A stretch of 64,000 bases of DNA from Piscibacillus halophilus (GTDB lineage: Bacteria; Bacillota; Bacilli; Bacillales; Alkalibacillaceae): the NCBI RefSeq assembly GCF_900110685.1, contig NZ_FOES01000004.1, positions 62,001-126,000 on the forward strand. Reading direction: 5' to 3'. Positions 5,690-56,375 of the stretch are shown here, one piece after another. Position 1 is the first letter of the stretch, and each line of letters opens with the position of its first letter. Both the position numbers and the translations under genes were made by a program. The notes under the pieces were generated by a model. The model saw only the letters and a list, made by a program, of their open reading frames with translations, did no database searches and had not been told where the DNA came from.

Positions 5690-5935
5690 TCATAAAAAAA
5701 CGCCCCTACATGTAACATGTAGGGACGATGATTCCGCGGTACCACCCTATTTATAAGCTCAAAAAGCTTATCGTCTCAAAACACCTTAACGTAGTGTTAA
5801 ACGGTGGGGATTAACCACTCTCAGGAATAGCTTCAATGACCCTTCACTTAGTATTTCTTTCAGCTAATGAAATACCTCTCTTTTAAGTGGACTGTCACTT
5901 ACTCGGTTCCATCTTCGAATTCGTGTTATTTACCT
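5690..5935 (-). promoter_or_regulatory. T-box riboswitch (tRNA-Ala) of alaS
   Basis: The conserved T-box AGGGTGGTACCGCGG lies at 5734-5748 on the minus strand. It is followed by a strong terminator, a CCCCTACATG/CATGTAGGG stem over 5701-5727 with a T-run at 5694-5700. Stem I has the AGTA-type internal loop, and GAA followed by GCT at 5829-5831 looks like the alanine specifier codon. Uncharged tRNA-Ala would pair with the specifier and the T-box, favouring the antiterminator and so expression of alaS. Confidence 0.95.
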
Positions 5936-14632: not shown

Positions 14633-14841
14633 TGTACAACAATCCCAATCGTGCCGTCGATCTGGTTATAGTTTTGAACCCGCTCTAAGCAGGTGGGTGT
14701 CCTGTTCCATGTTTTGTAAGTCCTCCGCGAGGCATTTACGCCGCATGGAAACACCAGACTCCCTTTTCTATAAGTGTTCGGTCAAAACATGTGAAGATCA
14801 ACGTACACATTAGGATTGTTTGTGTGTTCATTTGTTTGTGT
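14633..14841 (-). ncRNA. ssrS: 6S RNA
   Basis: About 209 bases show the 6S layout. The closing stem pairs AACAATCC and GTG at the 5' end with CAC and GGATTGTT at the 3' end. The 3' half carries GACACCCACCT, GGGTTCAAAAC and GACGGCAC, which align with the same region of E. coli 6S RNA (GACACATTCACCT, GGGTTCAAGG, GCGGCGGCA). 6S RNA binds housekeeping RNA polymerase as an open-promoter mimic. The B. subtilis 6S-1 gene also lies beside aspS. A strong promoter lies directly upstream. The ends are estimated from the promoter and the pairing. Confidence 0.87.
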
Positions 14842-14913: not shown

Positions 14914-16686
14914 CTATTCTGTCGCTTTTCCAGTTAATTTTAAGAATAACTCATCCAATTGTTCTGTGCTCACTGCTGATGGAGCATCAGTTAATGGATC
15001 AGAGGCTGAGGCTGTTTTAGGGAATAAGATGGTATCCCTTAAGTTAGTTTTACCAGCTAAAATCATAACAAAACGGTCTAATCCTAGTGCGATTCCACCA
15101 TGAGGTGGTGCACCGAACTCTAAAGCCTCTAATAAGAACCCAAACTGTTCTTTAGCTTCTTCATCACTAAATCCAAGAGTTTTGAGCATTTTTTCTTGCA
15201 GGTCTTTTTCGTATATACGCAAGGAACCTCCACCTAATTCAAATCCATTTAACACAACATCATAAGCTTGTGCTTTAACATTCGCCGGATCTTGTTCAAG
15301 CTTTTCGACATCTTGAACTTGAGGCATCGTAAATGGATGGTGTGCCGCGTGATAGCGACCTTCGTCCTCATCATATTCAAATAACGGCCAGTCTGTGACC
15401 CATAAGAAGTTAAATTTTGATTCATCAATTAGGCCTAAATCCTTACCTAATTTAAGTCTTAATGCTCCTAAACTATCTGCTACGACACTGGCTTTATCTG
15501 CAACAAATAATAGTAGGTCATTGTTAGATGCGTCCAATTTAGCACTTAACTGTTTAACCTCTTCCTCACTAAAGAATTTCGCAATCGGTCCAGTGAAAGT
15601 TTCTCCATCCACTTTCATCCAAGCAAGGCCTTTAGCCCCATATACAGCCACTAGCTCTGTTAATTTATCGATATCTTTACGTGAGAATTGGTCAGCCGCC
15701 CCTTTAACATTAATGGCACTAACCTTGCCTCCAGATTCAACCGCATTTTTAAAGACCTTAAAACCACTTTCAGATACGATATTATTCACATTGACCAATT
15801 CTAAACCGAAACGAGTATCTGGTTTATCTGAACCATAACGTTCCATCGCTTCTTCATATGTCATACGCGGAAATGGAGTTGGAACTTCAACACCTTTAAC
15901 TTTTTTAACAACTGAACTTAACATTTCTTCCGTCATAGCCATAATTTCTTCTTGATCCATAAACGAAGTTTCAATATCTAATTGAGTAAATTCCGGTTGA
16001 CGATCAGCTCTTAAATCTTCATCACGAAAACATCGTGTTATTTGGAAGTAACGCTCAAAGCCTGACACCATTAATAATTGTTTAAATAACTGCGGTGACT
16101 GTGGTAAGGCATAAAATTCACCTGGATGCACTCGACTTGGAACTAAATAATCACGTGCTCCTTCTGGCGTGCTTTTCGTTAACATTGGAGTTTCCATTTC
16201 ATAAAAATCATTATCATCTAAATAATGACGAAATGCCTGAGAAATATTGTGACGTAACTTCATCGTTTCTTGCATTTCTTCACGACGTAAATCTAAGTAA
16301 CGGTATTTCAATCGAATTTCTTCTGTTGCATCCGTTTGATTTTCAATTTTTATTGGTAAAGCTTTAGATTTGTTTAAAATATGAATCTCCGTTGCTTCAA
16401 CTTCAATTTCACCTGTTTTCATTTTAGCGTTGATCGTGGCTTCTTCACGTTTTTTGACCGTACCTTTTACTTCTACCACATATTCACTACGCAATTTTTC
16501 AGCTATTTCTAATGCATCTTTATTAATATTTGGATTAAACACGACTTGTACGATCCCTGATCGGTCTCTTAAATCAACAAAGATTAACCCTCCTAAGTCG
16601 CGTCTTCTTTGAACCCAACCTTTTAAAAGTACACTTTCATCGACGTTTTGAGTCGTTAACGTTCCACATTGTGTTCGACTTTGCAT
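14914..16686 (-). CDS. aspS: aspartyl-tRNA synthetase AspRS
   Basis: This class IIb synthetase of 590 residues charges tRNA-Asp. An N-terminal OB-fold anticodon domain ([23 protein letters not shown] split over residues 19-43) precedes the catalytic core. The core has motif 2 [18 protein letters not shown] near residue 220 and motif 3 [12 protein letters not shown] near 535. The bacterial GAD insertion domain lies between them. It starts 12 bases after hisS with AAGGAGG. It shares the hisS T-box, so its level responds to the same tRNA signal. Confidence 0.97.
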
Positions 16687-16698
16687 CCTGATGCCTCC

Positions 16699-17967
16699 TT
16701 AAAATCCTGTTTTTATTTCATCAGCAATCTTTTCTATTTCAACGGATTTTTGATCTCCCGTTTTTAAATTTTTAACATTCGCAACACCGTTGTTTAGTTC
16801 TTCTTCTCCAATAATAACTGCATAAGTCGCACCTAAACGGTCAGCTGCCTTAAATTGACCTTTAACCTTTTTATCTAAATAATCTTGATCAACTTTAATA
16901 TTTTGTTTCCTTAACTGATAAACAATTTTAGAAGATGCGTATTTAGCTTCTTCTCCAATTGCGATGACATAACAATCAACGCTTTCGTCTTTATCTAATT
17001 CAACGCCTTCTGCATCAAGTGCCATTAATAGACGCTCCATACTAAATGCAAAACCAATCCCTGAAATATCTGGCCCACCTAATTCTTCAATAAGTCCGTT
17101 ATAACGACCACCACCAGATAATGTGGTTATAGAACCAAATCCTTCTGCTTCACTCATAATTTCAAAAGCTGTGTGCGTATAGTAATCTAAACCTCTGACT
17201 AAGGTATCATCTACTACATAAGGGATTTGCATAGCATCTAGATGTTTTTTAACCTGTTCAAAATACTCAGCAGATGGTTCGTTCAAATAATCTAAAATCG
17301 ATGGTGCTGTTTTCATCGCCTCATGATCCCGATCTATCTTACAATCCAGTAATCGTAAAGGATTTTTTTCTAAACGATTTTGACAATCTTGACATAATTC
17401 ATCTTTAACCGGTTTGAAGTGCTCGATGAGAGCATTGCGGTGTGCCTCACGACTTTCTTGATCACCAAGACTGTTAAGTACTAACTTCAATGATTTTAAT
17501 CCAAGTGTTTGATAACATTCCATTGCAAAAGCCATGACTTCAGCATCAATTGCTGGACTAGCACTACCAATTGCTTCAATTCCAAATTGAGTAAACTGTC
17601 TTGTACGCCCCTGTTGAGGACGTTCATAACGGAACATTGGACCGACATAATAAAGTTTTGTTGGTTGTTCAGGTGATCCGTGAATTTTATGTTGAACATA
17701 TGCTCTTGCGACGGATGCTGTACCCTCTGGACGTAATGTCAAGCTACGACCACCACGATCCTCAAATGTGTACATTTCTTTTTGGACAATATCTGTTGTA
17801 TCTCCTACACTTCGTTGAAATAATTCTGTTCTTTCGAAAATAGGTGTTCTAATTTCTTTATAATTGTATACTTGAGCTAAATGATTCAGTTTCTCTTCAA
17901 TGACTTGCCATTTTTTTGTTACATCTGGTAATAAATCTTCCGTTCCTCTAGGGACATGAATATTCAT
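16699..17967 (-). CDS. hisS: histidyl-tRNA synthetase HisRS
   Basis: This class II synthetase of 422 residues charges tRNA-His. Motif 1 is in the first 60 residues. Motif 2 is [18 protein letters not shown] near 112-129. The HisA signatures [14 protein letters not shown] and GGGRYNGL follow. The C-terminal anticodon domain ends [14 protein letters not shown]. It opens the hisS-aspS operon, and a GGAGGAGG site precedes the ATG. Transcription is governed by the T-box leader at 18003-18281. Confidence 0.97.
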
Positions 17968-18002: not shown

Positions 18003-18281
18003 ATTAAAAAAGTCCCTACCAAAGATTTTCATCTTTGATAGGGACGAGATTGACCCGTGTTGCCACCCTGATTAGAATGGGGGTTAAATCCATTCTCACT
18101 TTATTATGTAACGCTTTTCGCGACCATCACCTACTACTATATTAGGTTCGATGCGGTACCTCCAGAATGTCTTTCGTAAAGTTAACCAAATAGGTTTATT
18201 CTCAGCCTTAGATAAACCCTCTCTGTAATAGTTATACCTTTACTACTCTTTCTTTCATAGGTTTTTCCATATTCAAATGTT
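18003..18281 (-). promoter_or_regulatory. T-box riboswitch of the hisS-aspS operon
   Basis: The T-box AGGGTGGCAACACGGG lies at 18054-18069 (minus strand). It precedes a terminator stem GTCCCTA/TAGGGAC with an inner CAAAGAT/ATCTTTG stem (18011-18046), then TTTTTTAATT. Stem I has the AGTA element near its base. In the specifier loop GAA-A is followed by GACAT (18167-18171), so either GAC (Asp) or CAT (His) could pair with a tRNA anticodon. The antiterminator would form when tRNA is uncharged. Confidence 0.93.
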
Positions 18282-18287
18282 TCACTT

Positions 18288-18316
18288 ATCATAAGATGGT
18301 TTGTTGAATCTGTCAA
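18288..18316 (-). promoter_or_regulatory. sigma-A promoter of hisS-aspS
   Basis: TTGACA at 18311-18316 and TATGAT at 18288-18293 are spaced by 17 bases. It sits directly after the dtd stop, so hisS-aspS can be transcribed apart from relA-dtd. Confidence 0.85.
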
Positions 18317-56109: not shown

Positions 56110-56375
56110 AAAAAAATCTTTCCATCCTTATATAAAAGGACGAAAAGATTGATTTCGCGTTACCACCTTCATTCACAAACATCATAAAGCTCTTAGTTTG
56201 TGCACTTCATGAACATAACGGTTTTCCCGGGTTCACCTACTGAATTCAATGAACCAGCATTTTCAGAGCGACCTTCCAAGTTTTCATACTGAGGAAACTT
56301 TCAGCACGTGTTTCCCTCTCTGTCAGAATCCAACTTGTACTCCTCTCTTACAGCATTTTTCGATTATATTATTTT
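56110..56375 (-). promoter_or_regulatory. T-box riboswitch (tRNA-Val) of valS
   Basis: The T-box GAAGGTGGTAACGCG lies at 56156-56170 (minus strand). It is followed by a terminator: AATCTTTTCGTCC pairs with GGATGGAAAGATT and a T-run follows at 56110-56116. Stem I includes GACAGAGAGGG and AGTA. In the specifier loop GAA-G is followed by GTC (56270-56272), a valine codon. Confidence 0.93.

Follow-up and report, generated by a model that had tools for sequence, protein, structure and literature searches.

Which tRNA is sensed by the leader of an operon that encodes two aminoacyl-tRNA synthetases of different specificity? The question is raised by a locus in a 64,000-nucleotide stretch of the Piscibacillus halophilus genome (hereafter the window), where the minus strand carries, in order, relA, dtd, a T-box leader, hisS and aspS, the four genes being named from their own sequences. 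The first gene of the operon, hisS (16699–17967), encodes a histidyl-tRNA synthetase of 422 aa, and aspS (14914–16686), for an aspartyl-tRNA synthetase of 590 aa, follows after 12 bp. A sequence-only reading had noted that an aspartate codon, GAC, and a histidine codon, CAU, overlap by one base in the specifier loop, and had proposed that tRNA-Asp, tRNA-His or both might be sensed. The analysis below favours the tRNA-Asp option among these, and the overlap did not stand as a sign of dual sensing. Directly downstream of aspS lies a 6S RNA (14638–14819, minus strand), as is also the case at the Lederbergia-type locus L211 (6291–6479, plus strand).

The leader and its specifier loop

The leader (18037–18267, minus strand) matched the T-box family RF00230 over its full length, model positions 1–219, with 122.8 bits (E 1e-26), above the gathering score of 93 bits. 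Besides the score, further marks of the family were found: a Stem I with specifier loop and AGUA/GAA S-turn, a UGGN bulge whose variable base complements the discriminator of tRNA-Asp, and an alternative terminator. The leader thus shares with transcriptional, long-Stem I members the full length, S-turn, specifier loop, UGGN bulge and antiterminator/terminator pair, and differs from them by ordinary sequence variation only. The predicted intrinsic terminator (18012–18045, minus strand) has a 15-bp stem followed by a U tract, with a z of -5.9, and upstream a sigma-70-type promoter candidate, TTGACA-17-TATGAT (18288–18316, minus strand), agrees with the consensus at 11 of 12 positions, consensus match being its sole basis. 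Two further T-boxes lie on the minus strand of the window, one with the specifier GCU (Ala) at 5718–5924, the other a valS leader at 56133–56362 with the specifier GUC (Val), reading GAA-G-GUC-G.

From 18175 to 18163 the minus strand reads GAA-A-GAC-A-UUCUG, and the GACAU block at 18167–18171 was confirmed to lie at the specifier loop by the sequence, the Rfam alignment and the Stem I fold. Comparison with the valS leader, made already in the sequence-only reading, also holds good: the same spacing selects GAC (18169–18171) before hisS-aspS. In the Rfam alignment GAC falls under the specifier of the consensus GAA-a-uuc-a-CC, and fold, sequence and conservation agree with this register. In the minimum free energy fold of Stem I, AGAGUA on the S-turn side (18244–18249) stands opposite GAAAGACA (18168–18175), and these two strands form the specifier internal loop in the Rfam alignment as well. 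Below the loop UUCU (18167–18164) pairs with AGAA (18253–18250), so that U18167 of the CAU triplet is in a helix with A18250. The whole of Stem I folded no better than its shuffles (z -0.26), and the placement of the specifier accordingly rests on alignment and homology more than on energy. CAU (18167–18169) is thus made up of the third specifier base, the conserved purine and the first base of the lower stem. The purine 3' of the specifier is described as conserved and held for stacking (PMC7583486). The A of CAU is this purine and its U opens the lower stem as one half of the first base pair; both bases are accounted for by structure.

Overlapping triplets in control T-boxes and orthologous leaders

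The chance level of such an overlap was taken from 76 T-boxes parsed in nine genomes, 16 of them from the window genome and 30 apiece from two sets of four genomes, the loci from both sets being the best-scoring per genome and so mildly biased to the consensus. Of the 65 non-hisS T-boxes with a confident parse, 62 had a pyrimidine at position 5, counted from the first specifier base. A CAY triplet overlapping the specifier by one base was present in 19 of the 37 controls with an NNC specifier, their specifiers including codons for Ile, Ser, Phe, Cys, Leu and Arg. The grammar GAA-x-NNC-R-Y is enough to give this result, so the overlap comes with T-box architecture. Position 4 was G in all six GUC valS leaders, which indicates that this base can be fixed by descent. 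The GAC/CAU overlap in the window, real as it is, appears unremarkable and not above chance. Co-occurrence of the two codons was rejected as evidence for a dual specifier, and with it went the suggestion that the overlap indicates sensing of both tRNAs, both on the control count and because the A and U of CAU are structurally employed. An overlapping codon is to be expected in a T-box about half the time, which matters for automatic assignment of specifiers.

Leaders of hisS were drawn from five sources: the nearest to the window by HisRS (110 of 299 genomes); the window's family (22 genomes, its own included); the order surrounding a Lederbergia genome (110 of 248); genomes resembling Listeria and Enterococcus (30 of 148); and eight Lederbergia-type loci retrieved with CAC as the search condition. 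Because the last were sought by their codon, the share of His specifiers among the leaders is no frequency. A pattern search for canonical His T-boxes, its second gap chosen in view of an observed 5th to 95th percentile of 88–134, gave 17 loci, eight of them hisS-aspS and nine before other genes. In a Sporomusaceae contig a T-box reading GAA-A-CAC-A (L220, 52–266, minus strand) precedes an amino-acid-permease-like gene and is possibly a true His T-box. Altogether 279 hisS leaders were examined, of which 275 yielded a state and 265 were distinct; L095, L116, L289 and L374 were dropped. Automatic register parsers sometimes took the apical loop of Stem I, and hisS leaders were read by an NAC-anchored rule. 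Fifteen leaders missed by that rule were read by eye, as were others with a wrong or missing parse; 40 of the 275 states were assigned by hand.

The sequence-only reading had proposed alignment of related leaders as a check on both triplets; only GAC proved invariant. In the window's family GAC was kept in 22 of 22 genomes and CAY in 20, the block being GACAU in 20 and GACGU in two (G787 and G788), with A and G, respectively, at position 4 and UGGC in the bulge of all 22. Within this family the His triplet appears to vary by a purine exchange that T-boxes allow. Among the 265 distinct leaders the specifier was GAC in 122, AAC in 135 and CAC in eight. The codon before the purine was NAC in every one, a statement partly built in, since the rule presupposes AC at positions 2 and 3. 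CAY was broken in 30 leaders: 24 with GAC, the operon being unchanged, and six with AAC. Loss of CAY with retention of GAC was seen in 10 of 10 leaders of group f22, 6 of 8 of f32 and 3 of 3 of f15. All ten f22 leaders had GACAA or GACGA; GACCU, GACUU or GACCC occurred in f32, f15, f26 and f27, and GACGU in f1 and f37. The AAC blocks lacking CAY were AACAA in four f21 leaders and AACAG and AACCC once each.

Probable sensing of tRNA-Asp and its alternatives

Taken together, the leader in the window is very probably a canonical, transcription-terminating T-box with the specifier GAC that most likely senses uncharged tRNA-Asp, CAU being a by-product of its architecture. What was shown by computation for the tRNA-Asp reading is the sequence with its fold and register, the terminator, the discriminators of the tRNAs and the conservation; tRNA binding and induction are what we infer. 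The choice of tRNA-Asp follows from the position of GAC in the specifier columns and of U18167 in the stem, by Rfam alignment and minimum free energy fold. The GUC anticodon of uncharged tRNA-Asp would pair with G18171, A and C18169; the conserved purine, A18168, would stack beneath the codon-anticodon pairing, and the GCCA 3' end of the tRNA would pair with the UGGC bulge (18062–18065, minus strand). This pairing would stabilise the antiterminator and let RNA polymerase read into hisS-aspS, and hisS expression would thereby track the charging of aspartate. CAU would arise simply from an NNC specifier followed by a purine and a paired pyrimidine. In the window genome, tRNA-Asp has anticodon GUC and G73, and tRNA-His has anticodon GUG and C73. 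The C of UGGC complements G73 of tRNA-Asp and not C73 of tRNA-His, which is a weak argument for Asp sensing. It is weak because all eight leaders with CAC in the canonical register also carry UGGC, tRNA-His C73 having been read in one such genome (G790). For His, the T-box database TBDB is described as leaving the discriminator out of account, because C73 may be base-paired (PMC7778990). In group f14 the bulge was UGGA in 23 of 23 hisS leaders, and UGGA complements none of tRNA-Asp, tRNA-Asn (both G73) and tRNA-His (C73) of genome G025. UGGN as proof against His was downgraded to a weak point on account of these CAC and f14 leaders.

Against a reading in terms of Asp only may be set the enrichment of CAY, the place of hisS at the head of the operon, and the relatives with a His specifier. 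The leader might be a two-codon T-box, tRNA-Asp binding at GAC and tRNA-His at CAU, shifted by two bases, so that shortage of either would raise both synthetases; we think this improbable. Both triplets are indeed present and overlap in the specifier loop, and CAY was found in 98 of 122 GAC hisS leaders versus 19 of 37 NNC controls (Fisher 0.001), or, by group majority, in 19 of 22 GAC groups versus the same controls (Fisher 0.01), the rows of both comparisons being orthologues that share ancestry. Some residual constraint on CAY in hisS leaders may underlie this excess. There are precedents in print as well. A T-box of Clostridium acetobutylicum with Asn and Glu codons was reported by Saad et al. 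in 2013, as described in PMC4052509; it resembles the window leader in that two codons overlap within a single specifier loop, but both of its tRNAs are reported there to bind, whereas the window leader is known from sequence and has one triplet conserved. The lysK T-box of Bacillus cereus is said to answer a second tRNA, Asn besides Lys (PMC2916919), but it differs as a lysine system with a mixed codon box and no overlapping codons. Dual sensing of the hisS-aspS operon itself has been proposed in print, Gutierrez-Preciado et al. 2009 being cited for sensing of both tRNAs (PMC4342826). Elsewhere GACAC is said to characterise hisS-aspS T-boxes, and the same 2009 work is reported as favouring tRNA-Asp mainly (PMC5313534). 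The overlap, as GACAC, and its mainly-Asp reading are thus already published; the operon and the overlapping Asp and His triplets are the same, as far as these citing papers describe them, and the window differs in having GACAU, the His triplet ending in U.

Other observations speak against two codons. Two of the 22 genomes of the family and 24 of the 122 leaders with GAC have lost CAY before an unchanged operon, and conservation of both codons in orthologues is not found. The shift of register would open the first pair of the stem and leave U18166, which is no purine, after the codon. Pairing with CAU would require a G34·U wobble, which is described as rare in T-boxes, with 5% of His specifiers (PMC7778990), and UGGC mismatches C73 of tRNA-His. 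TBDB is reported to allow the frames -1, 0 and +1 in a stretch of five bases (PMC7778990); the His triplet in the window is at +2, outside these. A sensor of tRNA-His alone, working through CAU, is in our judgement very unlikely. It would suit the place of hisS as first gene, the staphylococcal leader annotated as a histidine T-box (PMC7927825), and the Lederbergia relatives, which use CAC in the canonical register before the same operon. That CAC, however, occupies the position of GAC and not one two bases further on, and in the window the canonical register holds GAC, invariant in the family as CAY is not.

Possible specifier exchange among related operons

The interest of these leaders lies in exchange of the specifier among relatives and not in the overlap in the window. 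The eight Lederbergia-type leaders (L211, L212, L214, L216, L217, L218, L219 and L224, all hisS-aspS) read GAA-[GA]-CAC-A with UGGC, that is, His in the canonical register, and the Rfam alignment for L211 agrees. A near relative, G979 (L286), whose HisRS is 87% identical, reads GAA-G-GAC-A, one base from CAC. AAC was found in most Bacillaceae-like leaders, in all 23 leaders of the Planococcaceae-like group f14 and in the 14 leaders of the Staphylococcaceae-like group f21, these family names being guessed. It stands in the specifier columns of the Rfam alignment for L020, of f14, and L024, which is Bacillaceae-like, and its register is supported by the Listeria-like leaders and L364, in which the loop has the same additional base but the codon is GAC. 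The 14 f21 leaders (among L048–L126) are mostly without a recognisable AGUA S-turn strand, and AAC is kept beside a stem. On a FastTree tree of 191 HisRS sequences (GAC 105, AAC 77 and CAC 9, duplicates counted) the codon needs at least 10 changes and the presence or absence of CAY at least 11, the root direction not being fixed.

The evidence leaves it evenly balanced whether the specifier has been exchanged repeatedly by single first-base changes, among GAC, as in the window's family and many lineages, AAC and CAC, always NAC and always for tRNAs with a GUN anticodon, while the two-enzyme operon stayed the same. An origin of AAC from a non-discriminating AspRS in species lacking AsnRS was rejected: asnS scored above the cut-off in 33 of the 36 genomes with AAC and in 30 of the 34 with GAC, and the AspRS marker was uniform. 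The L of RRRDLG, which we take to be the residue marking a discriminating AspRS, was present in every one of the 184 AspRS for which the leader had been assigned a state. A literature search that excluded the two main comparative papers gave no mention of AAC/CAC exchange in hisS-aspS leaders, and it may well be in print already.

If the exchange is real, tRNA-Asn would be the signal for production of HisRS and AspRS in half of the operons sampled. The Lederbergia-type leaders and their near relative would offer natural one-base Asp-to-His swaps, between genomes with 87% identical HisRS, for testing how T-box specificity evolves, and it would have to be asked why one two-enzyme operon tolerates any of three tRNAs.
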